From NCBI RefSeq assembly GCF_900291475.1, contig NZ_OLMM01000001.1, positions 165,969 to 229,968 of the forward strand: DNA of 64,000 nucleotides, written 5' to 3'. Both the position numbers and the translations under genes were made by a program. The notes under the pieces are model-generated. The model did not search any database. It was not told where the DNA came from and saw only the letters and a program-made list of their open reading frames with translations. The DNA is from Acidaminococcus hominis (GTDB taxonomy: Bacteria; Bacillota; Negativicutes; Acidaminococcales; Acidaminococcaceae). Position 1 is the first letter of the stretch; every line of letters starts with the position of its first letter. Below are positions 203 through 61,449 of the stretch, piece by piece.

Positions 203-354
203 AGAGCTTCAACAAGAGCGTATGGGTTAACCACCCAACCACCCTGAGCACGTTCATACCGATGGTTGGCTCCCCCTGGGAGCATGATCATAATTCCCAC
301 TTTGTGAAAAGCAGGCAGACCTCCTTAATCCCGTTTGGTGGCTGCCTGCTTTTC
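203..354 (+). ncRNA. candidate small RNA of about 150 nt
   Basis: The stretch between the promoter and the terminator has no convincing open reading frame; the only ATG frames are 2 to 12 codons long. It can fold: CCAACCA pairs with TGGTTGG, a GCTCCC/GGGAGC hairpin follows, and then the terminator stem. It resembles a stand-alone regulatory RNA or a type I antitoxin RNA, but no toxin gene was recognised on the opposite strand. The assignment is an inference. Confidence 0.3.
306..354 (+). terminator. rho-independent terminator
   Basis: A perfect 12-bp stem (AAAAGCAGGCAG at 307-318 with CTGCCTGCTTTT at 342-353) ends in a T run. It closes the short transcript and lies across the apparent start of the autotransporter fragment that follows. 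Confidence 0.65.
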
Positions 355-1633
355 GTTATGCTGGGCAGCTGTTAAAAATGCGTCTTTCCTTGGGTTGAAC
401 TTTTCCGCCAATATCCTCAGCGGCGGCAACGTCCAAAGCGGCAACAACGCCTACGCCGCAGCTGGAGCCGGCGCCGGACAGGTACTGGCCCACAACAAGC
501 TGCTGAAATTTGTGGGCGCAGATGACAACAGTGCCAGCAAGTTCTCTGTTACCACAGAAAACCAGGACGCTAAAAACGTCTACGGCAATGCCCTGAATGC
601 TCCGAATGTAGTGAATGCAGCCATCGCCGGCACCGGCGCAGCAGCAGACTACTTTAACGCAGCCGCCAACGACCAGATTAACCCCACCACCGCTGGCCAG
701 GCAGCCGCTATGAACAGCGTCAACGCAATGAGCGAACTGGGCGGCGTGCAGCATAGCCTGTATGCAGCAAACAACCTGTTTGACAACGCCGTGATGAACC
801 ATCTGGCAAACCACGACGAAGATAAGGACGTTTGGGCCCACTACATCCACGACAAAGAAGACATCGACGGCCTGTCCTTGGACGCCATGGGCGGAGCAAA
901 CTACGACAGCCAGTATAACGGTATCGTAGCCGGCGCCGACCTGTACAGCAAGAACGGCGTAACCGCCGGTGCAGCCCTGACCTACATCGATGGCGACATC
1001 GACGGCAACACCCTGGGCACCAGCGTGAAGAACGAAGCCAAATACTACGGTGCCAGCCTGTACGGCAGAGTGGAGCAGGGCCGCACCTCCTACTTGGGAG
1101 ACATCTCCTGGCTGCGCGGCAAGAACGACCTCACCCTCAACGGCAGCGGCAAAGAAGTCACCGGCTCCGTGGATTCCAACGCCTTCAGCGCCGGCGTCCG
1201 GGCAGAGCAGCACTTTGACGTAGCCGGCGGCAGCCTGACCCCGTACGTAGGCATCCGCTACGCACACCTGGACTACGGCGACTACACCGACAGCCTGGGC
1301 ATCCACCACGACAGCGACGCCTCCAACCTGTGGCTGGCACCCTTGGGCGTACGGTACACCAACACCGTAAAGACCGGTAGCTGGACCCTGAAACCTGTGG
1401 CTGAAGTAGGCTACCTGTGGACCTTCGGCGACAGAGACGGCAACGACAGAGTCAGCCTGAACGGCGCTGCCGATACCTTCGGGTATGAAGTCGCCGACGA
1501 CGGCAGCTTCTACGGCAGATTGGGCCTGGAAGCCGAACACGGCCGCATGACCTACGGCATCGGCTACCAGTACCAGAAAGGCAGCAGCGTGAAGAGCAAT
1601 GCGTTCACATTTGCACTGAAGTATAAGTTCTAA
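335..1633 (+). pseudogene. 5'-truncated autotransporter (C-terminal beta-barrel part)
   Basis: The reading frame gives 432 residues that end in a typical outer-membrane barrel. From about residue 165 there are alternating aromatic/polar strands (for example YYGASLYGRVEQ and LTPYVGIRYAHLDYGDY), and the final residues are LKYKF, with the terminal Phe used for BAM recognition. No proper start exists. The frame opens at TTG/GTG codons inside the upstream terminator hairpin, there is no signal peptide or ribosome binding site, and the first internal Met is near residue 127. The passenger domain and secretion signal are missing, so this is most likely the 3' remnant of a longer gene. Its barrel differs from those of the three other autotransporters in the window. 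Confidence 0.75.
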
Positions 1634-1675
1634 GGTAAAAGTAGGAAATAGAGAAATAGTACAAGGGGAGAACGT

Positions 1676-1956
1676 CCAACAGCTTGAAGCCTAAAAAACA
1701 GACTTCAAGCTGTTGAGGAATCAAGATAGAATATACGAAATGGCTGGAGACAATCCGTGATGGATTGCCTCCAGCCATTTTATTGCGGCGCCAGCGCCGC
1801 AGAAGGAGCCTTCCCCACCCAGGGCCCTTGAATACTTGGTGTGGCCCGTCCCTCCCCTTCCTCATAGGCGGGGAGGGCAGAGGACGTGCTGGCCGGTTCT
1901 GTAGGTGTTTTTGATAGTGAATGTAGTGGTAAAGCTATCGTAACGATTAACAATTG
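1676..1956 (+). repeat. intergenic repeat R1, copy 1
   Basis: About 280 bp that recurs almost unchanged at 6480-6760 and in part at 10803-10978, each time just downstream of a plus-strand autotransporter gene. It contains a CAACAGCTTGAAG hairpin, the 1738-1783 hairpin and a GCGGCGCCAGCGCCGC palindrome. Confidence 0.75.
1738..1783 (+). terminator. terminator-like hairpin inside repeat R1
   Basis: ATGGCTGGAG at 1740-1749 pairs with CTCCAGCCAT at 1769-1778, with CAATCC/GGATTG extending the stem, and TTTTATT follows. The same hairpin recurs at 6545-6588 behind the next autotransporter. Confidence 0.5.
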
Positions 1957-2137
1957 ACCAGTAGTGGTTTGGAAGCCTACCACAAGCGTTGCGTTCACAT
2001 CCAAGAGCCAAAAGGCTCTTGGCTAATGTGAGCCATGCGACAGCCGTCCAGGAGCCAAGCCTGTAAGGCGATGGCGAATGGAATACGGCGAACCGCTGTG
2101 GTAGGTGTCAGCCAAAGGCTGACGGAGGAAGTTTAAC
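1957..2137 (+). repeat. two-hairpin palindromic element E1, with core
   Basis: Outer arms CCTACCACA (1976-1984) and TGTGGTAGG (2097-2105) enclose a core (1989-2096). The core has an inner stem CCAAGAGCC/GGCTCTTGG inside TCACAT/ATGTGA, and a second stem GCCGT/ACGGC. A tail hairpin GTCAGCC-aaa-GGCTGAC follows. Element E7 at 6761-6830 has the same arms and tail without the core. Confidence 0.75.
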
Positions 2138-2159
2138 CAGCCTTTTCACGGCGCTAGCA

Positions 2160-2229
2160 CCGCATATGCAAGAACCAAACTTCTATCGACGCCTTGCGGC
2201 GCCACTTCCTACACGTTTGCAGGAAGCAT
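2160..2229 (-). repeat. two-hairpin element E8, coreless, inverted
   Basis: On the minus strand, arms CTTCCT/AGGAAG (2221-2226 and 2205-2210) close a ten-base loop GCAAACGTGT. A GGCG/CGCC tail hairpin (2190-2201) and AGAAGTTT follow. It faces E1 tail to tail, with a CGGCGCTAGCACCG palindrome between them. Confidence 0.55.
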
Positions 2230-2283
2230 GCATAAACACCACGGTTCAGTTTCTTATCAGCACTATATTTTAGATTTTACTTG

Positions 2284-2477
2284 GCCAGTAGTGGTTTGGA
2301 AGCCTCTTTCAAGCATTGCGGTCGTGTCCAAACAGCGCTACAAGTATTCTAAAAGCTGTTTGGTATACACGACCCATGTGATAGCGGCCTGCAAAGCAAG
2401 TCCATAGGACGCAGCTGCGCAGCTAGCCGCGAACCACTAAAGAGGTGTCAGTCACTGCGTGACTGACGGAGAAAGTT
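2284..2477 (+). repeat. two-hairpin element E2, with core
   Basis: Outer arms CCTCTTT (2303-2309) and AAAGAGG (2439-2445) differ from those of E1 but pair perfectly. The core inner stem GGTCGTGTCCAAACAGC pairs with GCTGTTTGG-tat-ACACGACC, and a GCGGC/GCCGC stem follows. The tail hairpin is GTCAGTCAC/GTGACTGAC. Confidence 0.75.
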
Positions 2478-2700
2478 TAATTATTGCCTTCGCCTTACCA
2501 GTGCACTGCTTGGCGTGCACTGGAAAAGGGGAAGGTGCCGGCGAACTCGCCGGCGAATGGGGTTCAAAAGTAGGATACCCGCACTACACCCGTTGAGAAC
2601 GTCGACCAAAAACCCGGTACAGAGTTTTCTCCAGCAAAAAATTGCCTAAGGGCAATTTTTCTGTAGTTGAGCTACCGTCCTCACCGCACTAGCCCCAAAT
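2478..2700 (+). repeat. intergenic repeat R2, copy 1
   Basis: About 220 bp that recurs at 6831-7060 and 11551-11835. Landmarks are a CAGTGCAC/GTGCACTG hairpin, the phrase GGATGGGGTTC or GAATGGGGTTC, ATCCGGTACAGAGTTTTCT or a close variant, and an AAAATTGCC/GGCAATTTT hairpin (2637-2660). Confidence 0.7.
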
Positions 2701-2702
2701 GG

Positions 2703-2760
2703 GGACAAACCTTTCCCTTAGGGAAAGTGGCACCGTAGGTGCCAATAGGGGACACAGCGA
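2703..2760 (+). repeat. two-hairpin element E6, coreless
   Basis: Arms CTTTCCC (2711-2717) and GGGAAAG (2721-2727) are separated only by TTA. A GGCACC-gta-GGTGCC tail hairpin (2729-2743) follows. The layout matches E1-E5 with no core. Confidence 0.65.
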
Positions 2761-2846
2761 GCCCCACCCAAAACCCATAATCCCTTTCCACAAATAACCA
2801 CTCCTAGAAAATTGTCCGAAATATAATAACTACATTTCTACTCTCA

Positions 2847-2855
2847 TGCTATAAT
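2847..2855 (+). promoter_or_regulatory. extended -10 promoter of autotransporter gene
   Basis: TGCTATAAT lies about 95 bases before the gene. The identical nonamer is found upstream of the autotransporters that start at 7364 and (on the minus strand) 37375. No convincing -35 was found. Confidence 0.5.
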
Positions 2856-2948
2856 ACGGGTATAAAAAAGTATCTCACTCTTTAACAAGCAATTTGGCCA
2901 CATTGGAGGTTTGGTGCGAAAATGTCTTAGGGGGCATTTTCGGTATAG

Positions 2949-5900
2949 GTGAAGGGAGGCAGGCCAGCTGTCCTAAGGGGACTTCTGGCAATTTTTATGG
3001 GGAGTAAAGAGCAGCGCAGCTGCACAGCGGTGATTCTTTCCAGCATTTTGGGTATGGGGTTGTATGCCGCTCCGGCTATGGCGGATCCGGTTACCGTGAC
3101 GGGTGCTATTACCCAGGCGGAAACGACCGGCAACAGCGATACCGGTACAGCCAGCGGCAATACACTGACCGTTACGGAGGCTACGCTGGACCTGAAAAGA
3201 GCAACCGTTTATGGTGGTAAGGCTGCTGATGAACAAGCAGGCAGCGCGTCAAAGAATACGGTAACTGTCACAAACAGCAGCCTTACCAGCCTGGATATCG
3301 TTGGAGGTTACTCTTCTGGACCAGCTGAGGGGAATACCGTCATCATTGCTAGTACAAGTGCCGTTGGCTCTATAACAGGTGGGAATGGCAATAATGCCAG
3401 CAATAACCGGGTGGAAATCTATGGTTCTTCAGGCCCAAACTACGGTGGGTTTGTTGATGCAGGCGATGCGCTGGGAAACTACGTCCTGATTGATACGGCA
3501 GCCGATAATATCGGCACTACCTATGGCGGTTTTTCCCTAAAGGGTGACGCCAATGCCAACACGGTGGAAGTCAAAAGCGGCGTTGTGAACCAGGCAATCG
3601 GAGGCAATGGGGAAAACACGGCAAACAATCGTGTGATTATGAGCGGCGGAACGGATCATTATATGCTGATAGGCGGCTATGCAAATGGTTATGGAGGAAC
3701 GTCATCCAACAACCAGGTCACCCTCACCGGCGGTGAAATTACCTATAATGACAGCCAAATGCCCGCTGCCAGCGGTGGCTGGGCTCCCTTTGGCAGCGCC
3801 GACCAGAATAGCGTAGAAATCAGCGGCACAGCAGCTGTTGCAGGCAATGTCTATGGCGGCGGCTCCCTTTTAGGCAATGCTGCCAATAATACCGTCAAAA
3901 TTTCCAGCGGCACCGTGGGAGGAAATGTAGCTGGAGGCGCGGCACTCAATGCCGGTACTTCCTATTCCCTTACCCCCAATCCCACAAATGCCACCGGCAA
4001 CACCGTGGAAATCAGCGGCACAGCAGCTGCTGCAGGCAATGTGTACGGCGGCTATGTGAACCTTTATGTTGATTATTATATTCCCACAGCGACCGCACCG
4101 GTGGGTGATGCGTCCCAAAACACTGTCAAAATTTCTGATGTCTCCCTTTCTGGCGATGTCTACGGCGGCTATACTGTTTACGGCGATGCCACGGGTAACA
4201 CCACCAGCCTGACGAGCACCACCCTAAGCGGCGATGCCTATGGCGGCTATACTGCACATGGTACCGCTTCGGGCAATACCGTTTCCCTTACCAATGTCAC
4301 CGCCGATACACAGATGAAAGAAATCGTCGGCGGCCGGGCTCTCATAGGCACAGCTTCTGACAACACTGTAACCGTGGAGGGCGGCACTTATTTCAATGTG
4401 TACGGCGGGGCTACAGGCTCAGCCGCCGAATACGAACCCATTGCCTCACTGCCAGCGGGTGTGACAGAGACCGGCGACGCCACCGGCAATACTTTGATCA
4501 TCAAAGGCGGCACTATTTTCACCGCAGCCGCTGGCCGGGCCAATGAACTGGAGTATACCAATGCAGAAGGAAATACGGAAAATCTAGCAAAAGGCGATAC
4601 TACCGGGAATACCCTCTACGTCTATGACGGGGATATTACAGCGGCCGTAGGCGGCTATGGCGGCACCAACGTCAAAGATAATACCGCCAGCATGAGCGGC
4701 GGTACCGCTGCCAGACTGGTAGGCGGGGCCACCATCCTGGGCGAAGAAGGGACCATTTCAGGAAACCATGTTTCCCTTAGCGGCGGTACTGTCACTTATT
4801 ATGTAATTGGCGGCGAAGGTGCCGAAGCCGAAGGCGCCAGTACCGTCTCGGACAATAGCGTTTCCATCTCCGGCGGCACAGTCGCACAAAACGTAGCTGC
4901 CGGCACCACCGTCAGCGGCGATGCTACAGGCAATACCCTGACCATTTCCGGCGGTACCATTGGCACGACGGAAGGGGACACCAACTACATCGTGGGCGGC
5001 GCATCGGTACAGGGCGCAGCCAACGATAACACGGTCACCATCACCGGAGGCACCTTAGGCACCATGATGAGCCTCTACGGCGGCTATAGCGAACTCGAAA
5101 GCACCGGCAACACCCTGAATTTTTACACCAAAGACCAGACCGTCAAGAATCTGGACTACTTCCAGACCCTGAACTTCTACGTGCCGGCCGGCACCGTTCC
5201 GGGAGAGACCATGCTGGAAGTCACGGACACAGCGGATGTCCATGGAGCAGCAGTGAACGGCGGCATTGACGACAGCGTGAAACTGAGCCCTGGCCAGGTC
5301 ATCAACCTGCTCCACGATGCCAATACCATCAGCACCACCGGCACCACCTACAGCATGATCACCGGCAAAGACGTGGTCACGGACCCCGGCTTTGTCCAGC
5401 ACAAAGTCCTCATTAAAGAACAGGACCCCAATACCATTGTCCTGTACATCCCCGCCGGGGACAAAGGTTTCCTGAACCCCGATACCAAACTGATCCCCGA
5501 GCAGCGGGAAGCCGCCATCAGCGAACTGGTGAACGCTTCCGACCTGGCCGCCACCCAGGGCTATGCCTCGGCTGTGGCAGCCTACGAAGCAGCCTGGCTG
5601 GAAGACCATTCCGTGGAAGCCAAATTTATCCCCTATGCCGTCATCGGCGGCCACGACCTGCGCTATGACACCGGCTCCTACGTGGACAGCCAGGGCCTTA
5701 ACACCGAGTTGGGCTTTGTGAAACGCACCTTTGACGGCAATCACGCCGATACCCTCATGCCCTTTGCTGAGTACGGCAACGGCAACTACACCAGCCACCT
5801 GGACAGCGGCGCCAGAAGCGACGGCGACCAGCACTACCTGGGAGCCGGCCTGCTGCTTCGCAGAGACCTGCGCAGCGGCCTCCATTACGAAGGCATGCTC

Positions 5901-6419
5901 CGGGCCGGATACCTGTCCGGAGATTTCCGGGGCGTGCTAGCCGGTCACCGAGCCTCCTACGATACCGGTTCCCAATATATCGCCGCCCATTTGGGCCTGG
6001 GGAAAATCATCTCCAAAGGCCAGGACGACTTTGACTACTACGGCAAATTCTATTGGACCCATCTGGGCAGCGATACCACCGCTATTCATACCAATCTAGG
6101 CAGCGGCGACTACCATTTGGACAGCGTGAACTCCTATCGGACAAGACTCGGCCTGCGCTGGACCAGACATTTGGGCGCCCAGAACACCATCTATGCCGGC
6201 CTGGGCTGGGATTACGAATTTGACGGAGAAGCCAGAGCCCAGTACAGAGAATTTAGCACCCCCGCCCCCAGCGTCCAGGGAAGCAGCGGCATGCTGGAGC
6301 TCGGTTGGCAGAGCAAAGCAACGAAAGAGAACCCCTGGGGCGCAGATCTGCGAGTGACAGGCTGGACCGGAGCACAAAGAGGGGTAACATATGGGGTGAC
6401 AATAAGCAGAAGACTTTAA
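2949..6419 (+). CDS. autotransporter with GNTV/YGGY-repeat passenger
   Basis: A type Va secreted surface protein of 1156 residues. The best signal peptide begins at the ATG at 2997 (MGSKEQRS, a hydrophobic stretch, cleavage after APAMA), giving 1140 residues. The frame stays open back to a GTG at 2949, and neither start has well-spaced Shine-Dalgarno bases. The passenger (about residues 50-860) is built of irregular repeats around (S/D)GNTV-x-(I/L/V) and (V/D)YGGY, as expected of a right-handed beta-helix. The C-terminal 270 residues are a beta-barrel starting near YDTGSYVDSQGL and ending SRRL. Its barrel is clearly related to, but more diverged than, the near-identical pair encoded at 7364-10642 and 32896-37375. 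Ligand and function are unknown; an adhesin or surface antigen is likely. Confidence 0.85.
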   Translation: MKGGRPAVLRGLLAIFMGSKEQRSCTAVILSSILGMGLYAAPAMADPVTVTGAITQAETTGNSDTGTASGNTLTVTEATLDLKRATVYGGKAADEQAGSASKNTVTVTNSSLTSLDIVGGYSSGPAEGNTVIIASTSAVGSITGGNGNNASNNRVEIYGSSGPNYGGFVDAGDALGNYVLIDTAADNIGTTYGGFSLKGDANANTVEVKSGVVNQAIGGNGENTANNRVIMSGGTDHYMLIGGYANGYGGTSSNNQVTLTGGEITYNDSQMPAASGGWAPFGSADQNSVEISGTAAVAGNVYGGGSLLGNAANNTVKISSGTVGGNVAGGAALNAGTSYSLTPNPTNATGNTVEISGTAAAAGNVYGGYVNLYVDYYIPTATAPVGDASQNTVKISDVSLSGDVYGGYTVYGDATGNTTSLTSTTLSGDAYGGYTAHGTASGNTVSLTNVTADTQMKEIVGGRALIGTASDNTVTVEGGTYFNVYGGATGSAAEYEPIASLPAGVTETGDATGNTLIIKGGTIFTAAAGRANELEYTNAEGNTENLAKGDTTGNTLYVYDGDITAAVGGYGGTNVKDNTASMSGGTAARLVGGATILGEEGTISGNHVSLSGGTVTYYVIGGEGAEAEGASTVSDNSVSISGGTVAQNVAAGTTVSGDATGNTLTISGGTIGTTEGDTNYIVGGASVQGAANDNTVTITGGTLGTMMSLYGGYSELESTGNTLNFYTKDQTVKNLDYFQTLNFYVPAGTVPGETMLEVTDTADVHGAAVNGGIDDSVKLSPGQVINLLHDANTISTTGTTYSMITGKDVVTDPGFVQHKVLIKEQDPNTIVLYIPAGDKGFLNPDTKLIPEQREAAISELVNASDLAATQGYASAVAAYEAAWLEDHSVEAKFIPYAVIGGHDLRYDTGSYVDSQGLNTELGFVKRTFDGNHADTLMPFAEYGNGNYTSHLDSGARSDGDQHYLGAGLLLRRDLRSGLHYEGMLRAGYLSGDFRGVLAGHRASYDTGSQYIAAHLGLGKIISKGQDDFDYYGKFYWTHLGSDTTAIHTNLGSGDYHLDSVNSYRTRLGLRWTRHLGAQNTIYAGLGWDYEFDGEARAQYREFSTPAPSVQGSSGMLELGWQSKATKENPWGADLRVTGWTGAQRGVTYGVTISRRL

Positions 6420-6479
6420 ACGTAAGCAAGAAAGTTTAGAGCGTACCGTAACAGTCGGAATTCAGGAAAACGGAGCACT

Positions 6480-6760
6480 TCCAACAGCTTGAAGCCCGAA
6501 AAGCAGGGCTTCAAGCTGTTGAGGAATCAAGATAGAATATACGAAATGGCTGGAGACAATCCACGATGGATTGCCTCCAGCCATTTTATTGCGGCGCCAG
6601 CGCCGCAGAAGGAGCCTTCCCCACCCAGGGCCTTGGATTCTTGGTGTGGCCCGTCTCTCCCCTTCCTGTTAGGCGGGGAGGGCAGAGGACGTGCTGGCCG
6701 GTTCTGTAGGTGTTTTAACAGTTAATGTAGTGGGAATGCGATTGTAACGACTAACAATTG
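6480..6760 (+). repeat. intergenic repeat R1, copy 2
   Basis: Nearly identical to 1676-1956, including both hairpins and the GCGGCGCCAGCGCCGC palindrome. It starts about 60 bases after the stop codon of the autotransporter at 2949-6419. Confidence 0.75.
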
Positions 6761-6830
6761 ACCAGTAGTGGTCTGGATGCCTACCACAAGCGTGTGGTAG
6801 GTGTCAGCCAAAGGCTGACGGAGGAAGTTA
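6761..6830 (+). repeat. two-hairpin element E7, coreless sister of E1
   Basis: CCTACCACA (6780-6788), AGCG and TGTGGTAGG (6793-6801) are followed by GTCAGCC-aaa-GGCTGAC (6803-6819) and GGAGGAAGTT. Compared with E1 it lacks exactly the 108 bases at 1989-2096. Confidence 0.75.
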
Positions 6831-7060
6831 ATTACTGCCTTCTCCTTACCAGTGCACTGCTCAGCGTGCACTGGAAAAGGGGAAGGTGTCGGCGCACTCG
6901 CCGGCGGATGGGGTTCAAAACCAAGATTCTCGCACTACACCCCGAAGACCGCACGACCAAAAATCCGGTACAGAGTTTTCTGCAGCTAAAAATTGCCCGT
7001 GGGCAATTTTTCTGTAGTTGAGCTACCATCCTCACCGCACTAGCCCCAAAAGGGGACGGA
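6831..7060 (+). repeat. intergenic repeat R2, copy 2
   Basis: Same landmarks as copy 1: the CAGTGCAC hairpin, GGATGGGGTTC, CCGGTACAGAGTTTTCT, and an AAAATTGCC/GGCAATTTT hairpin near 6990-7014. Confidence 0.7.
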
Positions 7061-7067
7061 CGTTTCC

Positions 7068-7215
7068 CATTCGGGGGGAGTCGTATCCATTTCTCAAGGC
7101 CTTAGCCGCTGAGAAATGGAATATACGACCCCTGCGACAGCCGTCCAGGAACCGAGCCTGCAAGGCGATGGCGACTGGAATACGGCGAACCGCTCGAGGA
7201 TTCCCCGCACTAGCA
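7068..7215 (+). repeat. two-hairpin element E5, core with weak outer arms
   Basis: The inner stem GTCGTATCCATTTCTCA (7080-7096) pairs with TGAGAAATGGA-at-ATACGAC (7110-7129). GCCGT/ACGGC and GGCGAACCGCT follow as in E1 and E3. The possible outer arms GGGGGA/TTCCCC are short, and no tail hairpin is visible. Confidence 0.55.
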
Positions 7216-7303
7216 CCATGAAGTCCGCTGACCGCACTATTCCGCAAGCCACCCTCTATCGTGCCAAGAATCCCCAAAATTTATGTAAAATTCCCTATAA
7301 TCC

Positions 7304-7312
7304 TGCTATAAT
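7304..7312 (+). promoter_or_regulatory. extended -10 promoter of autotransporter gene
   Basis: TGCTATAAT is followed by AGTATT and a leader of about 45 bases. This promoter and the following AGTATT.TGTAATAA are shared with the minus-strand copy before 37375. Confidence 0.55.
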
Positions 7313-7363
7313 AGTATTATGTAATAACTGTCGTAACAAGATGTTTGTAAGGGAGGGTGTATT

Positions 7364-10300
7364 ATGGGGAAAGAAAGTAAATGGCTATATGCTTCTATCA
7401 TGGCTGCTGTTTTTGCTGCGGGGGCAGGCTTGCATCCAGCCCTTGCAGCGGATGTTACCGGAAAGACCACGACGGTTGACACGGAAGTAAAGGTAGACGT
7501 CTACGGCGGTCAGGGCACCGAGGCAGGGGACAATGTCACCAAAAACACGGTGACCATCACCGAAACGGGCTATGTCACGTGGGGCAGGGTCTACGGCGGC
7601 TATTCTCCTTATGGCAAAGCCGATGAAAATACGGTGGATGCAGAAAATGCGTATGTCAAAGGCACGGTCTATGGCGGCTACGTTTTTCTTGATGAAGACA
7701 ATACAAGCATCACTGCACCTTTTACGGCAGACGCCAGCGGCAATACGGTTACGCTGAAAAATACCACCGTGTTTAGCCTAATATATGGTGGTTCTGTAGA
7801 GCGTATCGGCGAAGACTCTGACCTGTTCCCGTATCTGCAGCCTTCTGCTGCCAGTAACAACACAGTGACCATCACCAATGAATCAACTACACCTATTACC
7901 TATCAGGATATCTATGGCGGCTACACGACTAAGGGCGATGCCAGCGGCAATACCATCAGACTGGAAGGGACCCTCAGCGGCAGTGGGGCGGAAGCCCAAA
8001 CGAATGTGTTTGTGAAATCTAGATTTCTTAAACAATCTGCATATGTAACCGGCGGTGAAACGTGGGGTGGCAGTGCCAACGGAAACAAGGTCAGCTTGGA
8101 GAACATCGGCATTAACGATAACGTTATTGGCGGTTATACAGAAAATGATCTGTATGTATCGGACGATAGGAGGGCCTACGTCAGTACCAATGGAAACAGC
8201 ATATATTTAAAAAATGTGTATGGCGCAGATGACGACTCGGGAAATAATCATTGGTCCGAGGCCCTCGGTGGCTATGTGCTTGTTTTTGCAGATTTAGACC
8301 CGGAAAACGAAGGAGCACAGCTATACGGTGAGAGCAATGATAATACGGTGACTCTGGTTGGCTCACCTGACATGCCCCAGTTGGCACACATCAAAACCGC
8401 CAGTGGCAGCTATACAGAATCCAATGCAAATTTCAATGTAAACGATACGAGTTCGGCTGAGCGCTATGCTGTATCCTTGAGCAGCAATGGTAATACGGTT
8501 TCCTTAAATCACTACCAGGCAGGAAATGTCATAGCCGGCAACTCCGGCACTGCCGTATATGTTTATAAGGAATATGGTTCTCAGAAGAACTCAAGTTCTC
8601 TATCCATAATCGCAAGTGACAGGGCAAATGACAACCGCGTCTTCTTGACGGACAGCACTGTTACCCGCAACGTCATTGGCGGTGGGACCGCTGCCTATAT
8701 TGAAGCGGATGAGGCCATTGACCTGGGAATGACGCTTACACAGAGCATGAGCGATACGGCCACGGGCAATACAGTCGTTCTGACAGGAAGCAATGTGACA
8801 GGACAAATTGACAATGAGGAACTACGCTATGGGCACGTGGTTGGCGGCTTGGCCTTCCAAGGTACAGCCGCAGGCAATACGGTCAACCTTTCTGACAGCA
8901 CGGTAACCAGTGCCTATGGCGGCGCTGCAGGTGAGTTGGGAACAGATGGCACGTTGAGAGACGACTTGAATGAAATAGCATTCCTGAGCGACACCTACGT
9001 AGGTGCTGAGACTCAAGCTAAGCTTACCAGCAAGGCCAAAGACAATACAGTCAACATGATCAGCGGCACCGCAGATTCCCTCTGGGGCGGCTACGCAAAA
9101 GCTTTTGAAATAACACAAAGCGATTATGTAAACCATGTAGAAGTTTTCACTACCACAAACTACGACAGCGGCTCCGCCAACGGCAACACAGTCAACTACT
9201 ACGGCGGCACGGTGAATCAAAGTATCATCGGCGGCCAGTCCGAATCCGCCGCAACCAACGACAACATCGTGAACCTGTATGGAACCCTGGTGGGCAGCAG
9301 TGTCAGCCTCTCCGGCGGCATTGGCAAGACCGAAAGCACCGGCAATACCCTGAACGTCTATACCCTGAACAACAGTGTTGCCAACCTGGACCACTTCCAG
9401 AACCTGAACTTCTACGTGCCAACTGAGGCCGTAAACGGAAATACCATGCTGACAGTAACGGGTACGGCAGATGTGTCCGGGGCGTCCATTCAGGCTGGCG
9501 TGGAAAAGACCACGGCCCTTAAAGGCGGGGACGAAATCAACCTGCTGTATGATGCCAAGGGCATCACTGCGGACGGGGCGACCTACGGAACCCTGGCTGG
9601 CTTGGATACGGTTATGGATGCCGGGTTTGTGATCCGGCCGGTGGAGGTAAAGCAAAAGGACGCCAACACCCTTGTGCTGCACGTCCTGGAGGGCCAAAAG
9701 GCCACACTTTCTCCGGATACCAAACTCATTGCTGAATCCAGTGCCGCAGCCCTGAACTTCATTGGGGCAGGAGCGGATACGGCCCTGGATGCCGGCTTTA
9801 TGGCAGCTTCCCAGGCCAGCCAGAACAGCGAAAGCCAGAAGAACTTTACGCCCTACGTTACTATCGGCGGGCAGAACATGCGCTACGATACCGGTTCCTA
9901 TGTGGACAGCAACGGCTACGCCGGGAACCTGGGCCTGGTACGGCGCATTGCCAACGATAATTCCGTAGATACCATCATGCCCTTTGCCGAATACGGCAAA
10001 GGCAACTACACCAGCCACCTGGATAACGGCAGCCGGGGCGACGGTACCCAGCACTATGGCGGCGTAGGCCTGCTCTTGCGCAGGGACCTGAACAACGGTG
10101 TATATTACCAGGCCAGCCTCCGGGCCGGCGTCATGGACGGCGACTTCCGGGGCGCCCTGGAAGGCTACCATACCACCTACGACACCCATGCCCGGTACGC
10201 CGGCGCCAGCCTGGGTCTGGGCCGGATCTACCAACAAACCGACAAAGATAGCGTGGATGTATATGGCCGATTCAATTATACCCATCTCACCAGCGATGAC

Positions 10301-10642
10301 GTAACCCTGCACAATGCCCTTGGCACGGCGGACTATAACCTGGATGCAGCCGATTCCTACCGCACCAGATTGGGCGCCCGCTGGACCCATAATTACCAAA
10401 AGAACCAGTCCTACTACGCAGGCCTGGGCTGGGATTACGAATTTGACAGCACTGCCAGAGCCACCTATGATGGCCTCAGCACCCCGTCCCCGGAGAGCAA
10501 AGGCTCCAGCGCCCTGTTAGAACTGGGCTGGAAGAGCGACGCCACCAAGGAAAACCCCTGGGGCGCAGATCTCAGAGTGACCGGGTGGGCAGGGAAGCAA
10601 AGAGGTTTGGTGTTTAATGCATCCCTCACACGGAGACTGTAA
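7364..10642 (+). CDS. autotransporter with GNTV/YGGY-repeat passenger
   Basis: A type Va autotransporter of 1092 residues. The ATG at 7364 follows GGGAGG at good spacing. The signal peptide MGKESKWLYASIMAAVFAAG is cleaved after HPALA near residue 28. The passenger repeats the motifs (A/S)(S/N)GNTV-x-(L/I) and (V/I)(Y/I)GG(Y/G), predicting a beta-helix. The region from about residue 640 (KTESTGNTLNVY) through the barrel to the terminal LTRRL is nearly identical to that of the gene at 32896-37375 on the other strand. The passengers upstream of this point differ. This suggests recent duplication or gene conversion of the shared 3' part. The protein is expected in the outer membrane with the passenger outside; its target is unknown. 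Confidence 0.88.
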   Translation: MGKESKWLYASIMAAVFAAGAGLHPALAADVTGKTTTVDTEVKVDVYGGQGTEAGDNVTKNTVTITETGYVTWGRVYGGYSPYGKADENTVDAENAYVKGTVYGGYVFLDEDNTSITAPFTADASGNTVTLKNTTVFSLIYGGSVERIGEDSDLFPYLQPSAASNNTVTITNESTTPITYQDIYGGYTTKGDASGNTIRLEGTLSGSGAEAQTNVFVKSRFLKQSAYVTGGETWGGSANGNKVSLENIGINDNVIGGYTENDLYVSDDRRAYVSTNGNSIYLKNVYGADDDSGNNHWSEALGGYVLVFADLDPENEGAQLYGESNDNTVTLVGSPDMPQLAHIKTASGSYTESNANFNVNDTSSAERYAVSLSSNGNTVSLNHYQAGNVIAGNSGTAVYVYKEYGSQKNSSSLSIIASDRANDNRVFLTDSTVTRNVIGGGTAAYIEADEAIDLGMTLTQSMSDTATGNTVVLTGSNVTGQIDNEELRYGHVVGGLAFQGTAAGNTVNLSDSTVTSAYGGAAGELGTDGTLRDDLNEIAFLSDTYVGAETQAKLTSKAKDNTVNMISGTADSLWGGYAKAFEITQSDYVNHVEVFTTTNYDSGSANGNTVNYYGGTVNQSIIGGQSESAATNDNIVNLYGTLVGSSVSLSGGIGKTESTGNTLNVYTLNNSVANLDHFQNLNFYVPTEAVNGNTMLTVTGTADVSGASIQAGVEKTTALKGGDEINLLYDAKGITADGATYGTLAGLDTVMDAGFVIRPVEVKQKDANTLVLHVLEGQKATLSPDTKLIAESSAAALNFIGAGADTALDAGFMAASQASQNSESQKNFTPYVTIGGQNMRYDTGSYVDSNGYAGNLGLVRRIANDNSVDTIMPFAEYGKGNYTSHLDNGSRGDGTQHYGGVGLLLRRDLNNGVYYQASLRAGVMDGDFRGALEGYHTTYDTHARYAGASLGLGRIYQQTDKDSVDVYGRFNYTHLTSDDVTLHNALGTADYNLDAADSYRTRLGARWTHNYQKNQSYYAGLGWDYEFDSTARATYDGLSTPSPESKGSSALLELGWKSDATKENPWGADLRVTGWAGKQRGLVFNASLTRRL

Positions 10643-10655
10643 ATGTGAAAGAAAG

Positions 10656-10705
10656 TAAAAAGCCGCTCTCCAAAATCATGCAGATTTTGGAGAGCGGCTT
10701 TTTTG
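10656..10705 (+). terminator. rho-independent terminator of autotransporter gene
   Basis: GCCGCTCTCCAAAATC pairs with GATTTTGGAGAGCGGC, followed by TTTTTT, just after the stop codon. Confidence 0.85.
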
Positions 10706-10736
10706 CTTGAAATCGGGGGATGAGTGGGGCGCTGAC

Positions 10737-10802
10737 AGGTAGTGCTGAAGAAAACGGACGACGTGCTACGCTTTCTACGAAAGCGTAGAGGTGTTTTTGG
10801 GA
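10737..10802 (+). repeat. 3'-flank hairpin element shared with the inverted paralogue
   Basis: GCTGAAGAAAACGGA, a CTACGCTTTC-ta-cGAAAGCGTAG hairpin, then AGGTGTTTTT and GAATATAT. The same order occurs on the minus strand at 32740-32812 behind the fourth autotransporter, but there the stem is CTACAGTTTTT/AAAAACTGTAG. Confidence 0.6.
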
Positions 10803-10978
10803 ATATATTGCGGCGCCAGCGCCGCAGAAGGAACCTTCCCCACCCAGGGCCCTTGGATTCTTGGTGTGGCCCGTCCCTCCCCTTCCTGTTAGGCGGGGAG
10901 GGCAGAGGACGTGCTGGCCGTTACAGGTAGTGATTTGATAGCTCATGTAGTGGTGACGCTATAGTAACGATTAACAAT
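10803..10978 (+). repeat. intergenic repeat R1, partial copy 3
   Basis: Matches the second half of R1 (from GCGGCGCCAGCGCCGC through GGCAGAGGACGTGCTGGCCG to GTAACGATTAACAATTGACCAG), but lacks the two leading hairpins. Confidence 0.7.
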
Positions 10979-11175
10979 TGACCAGCAGCGATATAGAACG
11001 CTTCCTGCAAACGTTGCGTTCGCGTCCAAACAGCGCTACAGTTTTTCCAAAAGCTGTTTGGTATACGCGAGCCATGCGACAGCCGTCCGGGAATCAAACC
11101 CGTAGGGTGCTGATGACCGGAATACGGCGAACCGCTCAGGAAGTGGTGCCGGTAGGCACCGATAGAAGTTCATTA
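10979..11175 (+). repeat. two-hairpin element E3, with core
   Basis: Outer arms CTTCCTG (11001-11007) and CAGGAAG (11137-11143). The inner stem TCGCGTCCAAACAGC (11020-11034) pairs with GCTGTTTGG-tat-ACGCGA (11053-11070). A GCCGT/ACGGC stem and a GGTGCC-ggta-GGCACC tail hairpin follow. Confidence 0.75.
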
Positions 11176-11204
11176 AAGCTATTTTTCGCGGCGCTAGCGC
11201 CGTA

Positions 11205-11275
11205 AATGCTGGGGTGAACTTCCTCAGTCATCCCTACGGGCTGACGGCCCCTACACGCTTGCAGGGGCCAGTCTT
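11205..11275 (-). repeat. two-hairpin element E9, coreless, inverted
   Basis: On the minus strand, arms GGCCCCT/AGGGGCC (11269-11263 and 11252-11246) close a ten-base loop GCAAGCGTGT. A GTCA/TGAC tail hairpin (11245-11227) and GAGGAAGTTC follow. It faces E3, just as E8 faces E1. Confidence 0.6.
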
Positions 11276-11355
11276 AGGCCCATACGAGTCATGTGCTAAA
11301 CGGGGTATAGCAAAGCAACATGGTTCGTAAATATCATCACTACTCTAGTCTATTA

Positions 11356-11550
11356 CATGACCGGTAGGGGCCTGGAAGCCTTCTGAGTGGTTCGCCGTAC
11401 TCCAATCAGCGGCGTCCTCGCGGACTTGCTTCTTGGACGGCTATCACATAGGTCGCATATTCCAAATGTCCTTGAAAACTGAATTGACATTTGGATGCGA
11501 CCGTAAAGCGTTGGAGAAGGTGTCGCCAGAGGCGACGGATGAGGTTCACT
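11356..11550 (+). repeat. two-hairpin element E4, core inverted
   Basis: The left flank CTGGAAG, arms CCTTCT (11379-11384) and AGAAGG (11515-11520), and tail GTCGCC-aga-GGCGAC are in the usual order. The core between them is reversed: GTGGTTCGCCGTA comes first and the GGTCGCAT/ATGCGACC stem comes second. Confidence 0.7.
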
Positions 11551-11835
11551 ACGACTTTTTCTGCGGCCGTAGGCCGAATGCCTTCTCCTTACCTGTTCGC
11601 TATGCGAACAGGAGAAGGGGAAGGGTGGCTGCGCCCAAGAGTAAAACGCAGCCGGGATGGGGTTCAAAAGTAGGATGTCTGTACCGCACCCGTTGAGAAC
11701 GTCGACCAAAAATCCGGTACAGAGTTTTCTCCAGCTAAAAATTGCCCTTGGGCAATTTTTCCGTTGTTGGACTACCTAACGGTCCGCACTAGCCCCAAAT
11801 GGGGACAAACCTTTCCCCACACAGGGGGAAAATGC
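11551..11835 (+). repeat. intergenic repeat R2, copy 3
   Basis: Same landmarks as copies 1 and 2, but the first hairpin is CCTGTTCGC/GCGAACAGG and an extra GGCTGCG/CGCAGCC pair replaces GCCGGCG. It ends with CCCCAAATGGGGACAAACC, as copy 1 does. The remaining bases up to 11957 hold a GCCCCGCTC/GAGCGGGGC hairpin (11910-11932) that could terminate the LysR-type gene. Confidence 0.65.
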
Positions 11836-11957
11836 CGCAACGCGGCAAAAGGGGCTTTCCCAGCCGTCACCCAAGCCTTTGCGGCCGACCGCCGCATACA
11901 CCTAGCCCCGCTCCAGTTATAGAGCGGGGCTAGTATGGGGTCATACCTCACCCAGTA

Positions 11958-12221
11958 TTATTCTTGCGGCTGAAAATTTTCAAATGCCATGTTCACTGAT
12001 AACCAAGATTGGGCCAAGGGCAGGAGTCGTTTGCCGTTGGGTGTCAGTTGGGTGCCCCGGGAGCCTTGCTGCCGCAGGACCAGCTGAGCACCTACCTGGC
12101 GTTCCAGCTGCTTTAGCCGATAGCTGACGGTAGCCTGGGATACATAAAGCACCCGGGAGGCTTCACTGATATTATTGACCTTAGCAATGGTCAAAAACGT
12201 TTCTACCAAATCTTTTTCCAT
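11958..12221 (-). CDS. LysR-type DNA-binding domain protein, no effector domain
   Basis: An 87-residue protein from the ATG at 12221, which has GGGAGG nine bases upstream; earlier in-frame codons are not needed. Residues 1-62 are a classic LysR winged helix-turn-helix (EASRVLYVSQATVSYRLKQLE), followed by the start of the linker helix. Family members are about 300 residues with a C-terminal inducer-binding domain. Here the stop codon comes directly after the DNA-binding part and repeat DNA follows, so it is either a truncated remnant or a stand-alone DNA-binding protein. It lies just downstream of the amidohydrolase gene, and two inverted repeats that could be its operators lie in the divergent intergenic region at 13297-13350. 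Confidence 0.75.
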   Translation of the reverse strand: MEKDLVETFLTIAKVNNISEASRVLYVSQATVSYRLKQLERQVGAQLVLRQQGSRGTQLTPNGKRLLPLAQSWLSVNMAFENFQPQE

Positions 12222-61226: not shown

Positions 61227-61275
61227 AGAAATAGAAGCGTTCCTTTTGCCAGGAAGCTCTTGTTCATTCCACATC

Positions 61276-61431
61276 ATTGATAGCTCTCCACCCTAAGGCG
61301 ACAGTCTGCAGATTCTTGATCTGCAGCCCAGCACGGCCATGTACCCACGGTCCTGCTTCGGCGGTTGGCCTTTCATTTTCCTCTTTGGTGTCCCTCAGAA
61401 AACTACTGATCGTTTCCGCGCCTCTATCACT
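61276..61431 (-). promoter_or_regulatory. lysine riboswitch (L box)
   Basis: The minus strand shows the L-box landmarks in order: GTGATAGAGGCGCGGAAAC, AGTAGTTTTCTGAGGGA, GAAAGGCCAACCGCCGAAGC, a GCTGCAGATCAAGAATCTGCAG hairpin region, and TTAGGGTGGAGAGCTATC, which closes P1 with GATAG/CTATC. A terminator and dapB follow. It switches off the lysine operon when lysine is plentiful. Confidence 0.9.
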
Positions 61432-61449
61432 TGTAAATTTTATGGTTTT

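Follow-up and report, generated by a model that had tools for sequence, protein, structure and literature searches.

Several families of short intergenic palindromes are known to keep their shape while their sequence changes. Palindromy is maintained through complementary mutation in repetitive extragenic palindromes (REPs; PMC2817692), and compensatory changes have been described for REPINs, the paired form of REPs (PMC3116915). REPs and related palindromic units also serve as insertion sites for the insertion sequences (IS) IS1397 and ISKpn1 (PMC1525189). In low-GC Firmicutes, intergenic stem-loops have been reported that could not be assigned to large repeat families (PMC1590033). Firmicutes, Negativicutes and words beginning with Clostrid- or Bifidobacter- are not mentioned in the main text of a paper on tagged REPs (PMC3733652). 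Here we describe structured repeats in a window of 64,000 nucleotides from Acidaminococcus hominis (contig NZ_OLMM01000001.1, positions 165,969 to 229,968). A sequence-only reading of this window had reported one family of two-hairpin palindromes. The family proved to be two elements mixed together, a two-hairpin unit of about 75 bp and an insert, which we call J.

The sequence-only reading also knew of nothing of the kind with a described function, a view that the complementary mutation reported for REPs and the compensatory changes reported for REPINs do not support. For the units and J themselves no description was found in the available parts of the literature searched, and absence there is not absence from print. 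The region is probably a mosaic built from extragenic, non-coding palindromes, selfish DNA that acts in the manner of REPs, bacterial interspersed mosaic elements (BIMEs) and REPINs and is kept for its shape and not for its sequence.

The two-hairpin unit

The unit has a fixed order of parts. A conserved 5' flank (TTGACCAGTAGTGG...) is followed by hairpin 1, a single base, hairpin 2 and a conserved tail (GATAGAAGTTTA or a variant). The arm of hairpin 1 is 7 bp long and variable, its tip (CA-AGCG-TG) is constant, and the arms of hairpin 2 are variable too. The source genome is an assembly of 2.6 Mb in 23 contigs, and positions refer to the 64-kb window unless a locus label (L...) is given. A pattern scan covered the window and 20 other stretches of the genome, 20 further stretches were added later, and positions 1500-12000 were read directly. 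The alignment that was tested contains 24 of 25 short J-free units; the one left out, L015:1668-1773, is close to L015:26-131.

Among these 24 natural units, hairpin 1 is paired in 99.1% of cells and shows two-sided change at 7 of 9 pairs, and hairpin 2 is paired in 89.3% and shows two-sided change at 4 of 7. Across the whole tested structure, including a small flank hairpin, 91.4% of cells pair, against 31-50% in slid registers; the structure was written from the same alignment that tested it, which favours the structure. The covariation is genuine and strong, its score of 0.413 being reached by none of 500 shuffles. Weaker measures separated the units less sharply, with shuffles reaching the number of two-sided pairs in 5 of 500 cases and the number of pair types in 191 of 500. 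The small flank hairpin (CCA/TGG) was dropped as a third hairpin, with 73.6% pairing and zero two-sided change. A guide pairing between the 5' flank and the tail, inspected by eye, was inconsistent between arm classes and was also abandoned. The compensatory change at both stems proposed in the sequence-only reading is borne out in this genome, where the arms do covary across the 24 copies; in other taxa it is seen mainly at hairpin 2. A covariance model of the unit, which that reading had suggested building, gives 84 matches in the genome, some of the weakest being pieces of filled units, and none in eight same-genus genomes, in keeping with a spread within the species.

Seven of the nine stretches originally listed are units: 1957-2137 (+), 2160-2229 (-), 2284-2477 (+), 6761-6830 (+), 10979-11175 (+), 11205-11275 (-) and 11356-11550 (+). 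Of the other two, 7068-7215 is J alone, and 2703-2760 (+) consists of two perfect hairpins of similar layout and is a putative member, with no unit-model match at E<=1. The arms quoted for these copies are present; the tip pair of the 2160 copy is G.T. As delimited here, the first unit occupies 1953-2137 (+) and belongs to arm class CCTACCACA, with its 5' arm at 1976-1984, its 3' arm at 2097-2105, hairpin 2 at 2107-2123 and the tail GGAGGAAGTTTA. A unit of class CCTCTTT extends over 2281-2479 (+; arms 2303-2309 and 2439-2445, hairpin 2 at 2447-2467), one of class CTTCCTG over 10977-11172 (+; arms 11001-11007 and 11137-11143, hairpin 2 at 11145-11160), and one of class CCTTCT over 11356-11550 (+; arms 11379-11384 and 11515-11520, hairpin 2 at 11522-11536). 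All four hold J in the loop of hairpin 1. Three units are free of J: 2176-2250 (-; class CTTCCTG, 74 bits), 6757-6831 (+; class CCTACCACA, 84 bits) and 11215-11293 (-; class GGCCCCT, 68 bits).

Searches of the window, of positions 1900-11700 and of eight loci with J relatives against Rfam 15 gave no family at threshold for units or J. At E<=1, positions 1900-11700 matched just miRNA and sRNA families, far below threshold and none covering a unit or J. RNA folds of two J-filled copies have z-scores of -8.14 and -5.05.

J and other occupants of the hairpin loop

J is a covarying insert of 122 nt, ranging from 108 to 124 nt among copies, that sits in either orientation on the 3' side of the hairpin 1 loop. 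The sequence-only reading had treated the copies at 1957, 2284, 10979 and 11356 as single long palindromes and missed the separate J that each carries in this loop. The nested copies lie at 1989-2096 (+, 111 bits), 2316-2437 (+, 134 bits), 11014-11135 (+, 134 bits) and 11387-11506 (-, 115 bits); the last is inverted and leaves the AGCG loop on its other side. A fifth J, at 7075-7193 (+, 91 bits), stands outside any unit hairpin, as judged from its flanks by eye. Class CCTACCACA exists in the window both in a natural empty form (6757-6831) and filled with J (1953-2137), the two having the same arms. Elsewhere in the genome, double insertions of the form rcJ-loop-J occur at four loci (L016, L026, L052 and L056). 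Because empty and filled hairpins share their arms, and because J is found inverted and doubled, we infer that the empty unit hairpin is the ancestral state and that J was inserted later.

The genome contains at least 146 J matches (146 of 150 scored candidates), and the true number may exceed this. J folds as two hairpin domains with two-sided change at 23 of 37 predicted pairs (35 copies), and some positions show four standard pair types. The sequences around J were compared in 83 full-length copies with both flanks, out of 117 J matches, which gave 78 distinct flank pairs. The flanks can pair perfectly over at least 6 bp in 44 of the 78, whereas flanks permuted among copies gave a mean of 12.9 (maximum 24) and shuffled flanks 2.6 (maximum 7). 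The four bases preceding J are AGCG in 36, AACG in 12 and CGCT in 12 of the distinct pairs (60 of 78), J is followed by T in 77 of 78, and there is no clear target duplication at the ends of J. At L013:6686-6907, a left arm of class CCTTCT and a right arm of class CTTCCT surround one J, an arrangement that resembles unit recombination through J. A small contig, C18, carries three J copies and gave no rRNA match; a location of J in the rRNA operons of this genome was considered and not established.

An insertion sequence uses the same loop. This 1730-bp element belongs to the IS3 family, with HTH_Tnp_1 (OrfA) and rve (OrfB) matches and TG...CA ends, and its copy in a unit loop at L011 is 99.9-100% identical by blastn to copies in L021, L050, L051 and L053. 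Its end pattern adjoins a unit half-hairpin in 10 of 14 matches, judged by eye; the other four, which have no adjoining hairpin and lie in coding-like sequence, were discounted as chance matches. In all four copies with both junctions readable, a half-hairpin lies on either side. An attempt to define the left end as a mirror of the right gave no usable left end, and the boundary came from blastn. A second abundant insertion sequence with near-identical ends occurs at L013:13257 and 14 further places, partly at assembly gaps; we take it to be IS30-like from its protein end. It was rejected as an occupant of the hairpins, its ends not adjoining hairpins when inspected by eye.

Units also combine into a larger structure. 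Six pairs of units arranged head to head can be aligned as a single composite of about 300 bp inside an inverted bracket, GGGGCTGTGAAAAAAT, and two composites at different loci share a 93% match across 316 bp. When up to two mismatches are allowed, the bracket motif occurs at 68 places, compared with 3 for a reversed-pattern control. No target duplication was noticed by eye at the aligned composite ends, where the inverted bracket is present. One composite lies at the end of rpoC. It is absent from all eight same-genus relatives, none of which shows the bracket motif along with the unit motif in the 900 bp next to the aligned end. Single loose matches to the bracket or unit motif occur behind rpoC in L331, L332 and L337, and in L337 a bare hairpin, GAGGCTGTGAAAT..ATTTCACAGCCTC, stands directly behind the gene. 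It is as if the composite of the present genome lay in the loop of a terminator like this one.

Location, relatives and the search for a mobiliser

The copies were mapped relative to genes, as the sequence-only reading had proposed. None of 71 units and none of 114 J copies lies inside a predicted gene, compared with 68% of random places. Units or J occupy 26 of 70 convergent gaps, 31 of 259 tandem gaps and 2 of 55 divergent gaps, so that convergent gaps are favoured. In tandem gaps, sense and antisense copies number 11 and 16 for units and 26 and 17 for J. These counts come from 690 kb chosen around matches, and therefore enriched for repeats, with genes predicted by a purpose-made codon-usage script; units and J below 30 bits were excluded, and 16 units and 13 J copies at stretch edges had no gene context.

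The first open reading frame of the window (335-1633) encodes an autotransporter beta-domain. Two long reading frames between the repeat blocks, at 2949-6419 and 7364-10642, have no Pfam match at E<=0.001; from their look we presume that they are autotransporter-like. A lysine riboswitch at 61273-61434 (-) is the sole Rfam match of the window.

Relatives of the unit occur outside the genus. Class-wide covariance searches covered 200 sampled genomes under stricter filters, so that weak matches can be missed, and found weak unit matches of 28-41 bits in 14 of the 199 other genomes. The class matches shown have the form GCCTTCCCC..GGGGAAGG-T-GTCAGCC..GGCTGAC-GGATGAGGTG or GGCTCCC... A broad pattern fixing GAAGGTG and GNCGGATGAGGT found at least 120 stretches in viral contigs, which may be phage DNA or flanking host DNA, and at least 119 in genome contigs. 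Among the matches listed (80 genome titles), most are from Clostridia and Selenomonadaceae, with three Bifidobacterium species and single records titled Nomurabacteria, Alphaproteobacteria, Rhizobium and Bacteroidetes. The earlier impression that pairs of this sort occur commonly among gut Firmicutes is supported by the Clostridia and Selenomonas titles listed, and it extends to Bifidobacterium, so that similar units are widespread among bacteria of the gut. In the two outside collections, hairpin 1 lies upstream in 88 of 97 and 97 of 106 listed matches (6 and 16 in the shuffled control). Its arms there are nearly always CCTTCCCC or close to it, which means that this set shows no arm turnover. 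Hairpin 2 is diverse, with 77 distinct sequences of the 97 listed and 76 of the 106. Uninterrupted 5-bp pairing from its base is found in 48 of 97 and 67 of 106; inspection by eye often shows G·A as the second pair.

Relatives of J were found in 27 of 199 other class genomes sampled; the 7 same-genus genomes included in that search had none. In 30 sequences from several families, 16 of 17 predicted pairs show two-sided change, and J has unpaired positions that are conserved across families. Five relatives stand in tandem with a period of 118 at L326:1501-2091. Others adjoin rRNA genes: one begins at the 3' end of a 23S gene (L323:1501-1618), one abuts a 5S gene on the opposite strand (L325:1501-1619), one lies 75 bp upstream of a 16S gene (L328:159-265), and, judged from sequence, three follow a 16S 3' end (L352, at 234-350, L370 and L377). 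Judged by eye, a J relative lies in the hairpin 2 loop of a two-hairpin unit at L329, and relatives lie between the two hairpins at L353 and L354. In family f15 (L370-L377, L379, L380 and L382), several genomes match about 47 nt of J only, and the flanks read on in the manner of a second domain of J.

The transposases to which REP movement is attributed were sought through their Y1_Tnp domain (PF01797). The genome gave no match, with a control positive in 5 of 14. Y1_Tnp was absent from 11 of the 13 unit-bearing class genomes tested (of 14) and present in G139 and G045. It occurs in 15 of 27 J-bearing genomes and in 12 of 27 others, a comparison set chosen non-randomly from listings, 7 to 8 of which bear units. 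Two genomes rich in J, G128 and G132 (14 and 12 matches), have none. A Y1 transposase of the REP-associated (RAYT) type was rejected as the driver, since this genome lacks a match to it and its occurrence in other genomes is not linked to J. The genome also encodes a single reverse transcriptase gene, seen as two match pieces (L317:403-2202); we assume that it is maturase-like and its neighbour phage-portal-like. With one gene in a single copy, a group II intron reverse transcriptase was set aside as the driver of J. The J-filled unit gave no match in plasmid or phage collections, and a J relative and the composite gave none in the plasmid collection. Three exact patterns of J and the unit found nothing in viral contigs, unlike the broad two-hairpin pattern.

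Competing explanations and known systems

The favoured reading, of selfish palindromes kept for their shape, can be put as a mechanism. The unit of about 75 bp would be the recognized body. Its unpaired flanks, hairpin tip and one-base spacer are conserved, while its arms can vary so long as pairing is preserved. Copies able to fold, most likely into hairpins of single-stranded DNA from either strand, would continue to multiply or serve as targets. The arms would covary because only folding copies go on, and the filter on pairing would presumably act during movement. The loop of hairpin 1 is a target in its own right, entered by J at the 3' side of AGCG on either strand and by the IS3-family element in the middle, as their junctions show. 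Head-to-head pairs sit, in the composite of about 300 bp, within terminator-like inverted repeats, and at one locus a relative has such a hairpin empty. Hairpins are in this way nested in the loops of other hairpins. Copies lie 3' of genes, and they may persist there because they do least harm. The enzyme that moves units and J is, by the domain search, not an evident Y1 transposase of the RAYT type.

A rival account is that the units and J act as functional RNA, transcribed at gene 3' ends or in rRNA operons and selected, for example, as stabilizers, processing sites or terminators. This account seems unlikely. The conserved unpaired positions of J, its relatives adjoining 23S, 5S and 16S genes, the location 3' of genes, the strong folds and the G.T at the unit tip pair speak for it. 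In J, however, G.T and A.C make up 1.1% and 1.2% of pair cells (n=3773), and units without the tip pair have 6 G.T and 5 A.C (n=959), whereas 12 control tRNAs have 5.9% G.T and 0% A.C, a figure biased by the rules of ARAGORN itself. A G.T on one strand is an A.C on the other, and this symmetry points to pairing kept at the DNA level or on both strands, the tip pair excepted. Tandem gaps also show no consistent bias to the sense strand, and J occurs in both orientations and in double insertions. Strand-symmetric Watson-Crick pairing in every copy is equally what would be expected of mechanical correction, in which template switching during replication rewrites one arm from the other without selection. 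Pairing in J is steady as its arms diverge, in further agreement (4.4, 4.6 and 4.8% non-Watson-Crick by thirds of arm divergence). But the closest copies differ mainly by one-sided changes, and the two-sided share climbs with divergence. From one changed pair to nine or more it rises from 0.16 to 0.84 in J and from 0.34 to 0.77 in units, the copy pairs being non-independent. Such a course fits stepwise mutation under a pairing filter and not instant arm-to-arm copying; correction by template switching at a later stage is possible. Pairing is slightly poorer in J copies whose unpaired positions have diverged more (rho 0.29, p 0.003), a one-sided arm variant, GCCCATC/GAGGGGC, has spread uncorrected through 5 alignment rows, and the conserved loop, flanks and spacer are left unexplained. 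We regard mechanical correction as unlikely.

That J, and perhaps the units, are non-autonomous elements of the IS200/IS605 type moved by a Y1 transposase is quite improbable. J does look by eye like two similar hairpin domains, and it lies 3' of one of three short motifs, with T next and no clear duplication. The genome nevertheless has no Y1_Tnp match, the domain is nearly as frequent in genomes without J as in those with it, and J is abundant in two genomes that lack it. It is scarcely credible that the arm classes are old neutral leftovers, a few ancestral sequences under no current constraint. By eye, three arm families (CTTCCT, CCTACCA and GCCC..) fill most rows of the unit collection, and pair types are no more numerous than after shuffling. 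Against this stand paired cells and a covariation score far above the shuffled and slid controls, the diversity of hairpin 2 in the two outside collections and the four standard pair types at some J positions. For J we offer a more tentative proposal. It might stand for a novel class of structured mobile DNA, non-coding and some 120 nt in length, with two similar hairpin domains, kept by shape as much as by sequence across several families of the class. A non-Y1 enzyme, guided by structure, would insert it on either strand at the 3' side of hairpin loops and also at the borders of rRNA genes, and the units would be its evolving landing pads.

Several observations weigh against selfish palindromes kept for shape. 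Over all unit pair cells, G.T exceeds A.C (2.8% against 0.5%, n=1023), and 23 of the 29 G.T fall on the tip pair (23 of 64), a wobble that RNA can tolerate. Two or three positions of hairpin 2 frequently carry G.A or open pairs, and the spread of the one-sided arm variant means that imperfect hairpins can propagate. In units the most diverged third pairs worst (3.1, 1.0 and 7.1% non-Watson-Crick by thirds; rho 0.24, p 0.06; tip pair and innermost hairpin 2 pair omitted). Of the distinct J flank pairs, 34 of 78 lack a 6-bp stem, some apparently recombined. In convergent gaps J lies on the + strand 37 times and on the - strand 17 times, an imbalance that we could not relate to the genes, and beside rRNA genes an RNA role for J relatives is possible. 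No mobilizing enzyme was found, nor was any product of excision or transposition. The units also fail two tests of REPs. One is a GT(A/G)G head directly at the palindrome: GTAG is present in the flank CCAGTAGTGG, separated from hairpin 1. The other is a RAYT (Y1_Tnp) gene in the genome.

As high-copy extragenic palindromes with head-to-head doublets (six aligned, and further positions in the genome) and complementary mutation, the units pass three other REP tests. They resemble REPs, BIMEs and REPINs in being short, high-copy intergenic palindromes with opposite neighbours and paired doublets that lie downstream of genes (PMC2817692, PMC3116915, PMC3733652). They differ from the RAYT-associated forms in having two hairpins per unit, a loop that hosts a second structured element, and a genome without a Y1_Tnp match. 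IS1397 and ISKpn1 provide a parallel for an IS3-family element that sits in a repeat palindrome (PMC1525189). Here the host and the palindrome are others, and the unrelated, non-coding J uses the same loop. Miniature inverted-repeat transposable elements are also small non-coding repeats (PMC10969869), and the composite of about 316 bp with inverted ends GGGGCTGTGAAAAAAT is similar. It seems to differ from them in that inspection by eye showed no target duplication at its aligned ends, no matching transposon was found, and its ends resemble a terminator hairpin that is empty in a relative.

J has two further counterparts. IS200/IS605 elements and their non-autonomous derivatives have two imperfect end hairpins, produce no clear target duplication and insert beside a short motif. 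J shares these features with their ends, and it is set apart by a genome without a Y1 match and by the lack of a Y1-J association across genomes. The intervening sequences of rRNA are structured inserts in a hairpin loop; the rRNA-linked relatives of J, in contrast, are seen in spacers or leaders and not inside rRNA helices. With its covariance model, its relatives in many genomes and its defined insertion site, J offers a good starting point in the search for an enzyme of structure-guided insertion. In the units, a single species has a REP-like population and no match to the transposase family to which REP movement is attributed, and through them the question of what moves REPs without RAYT becomes testable. 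By working principle the units are REP- and BIME-like, yet they are not REPs by two tested defining features, and the nested J, which matches no Rfam family, is the most novel part.

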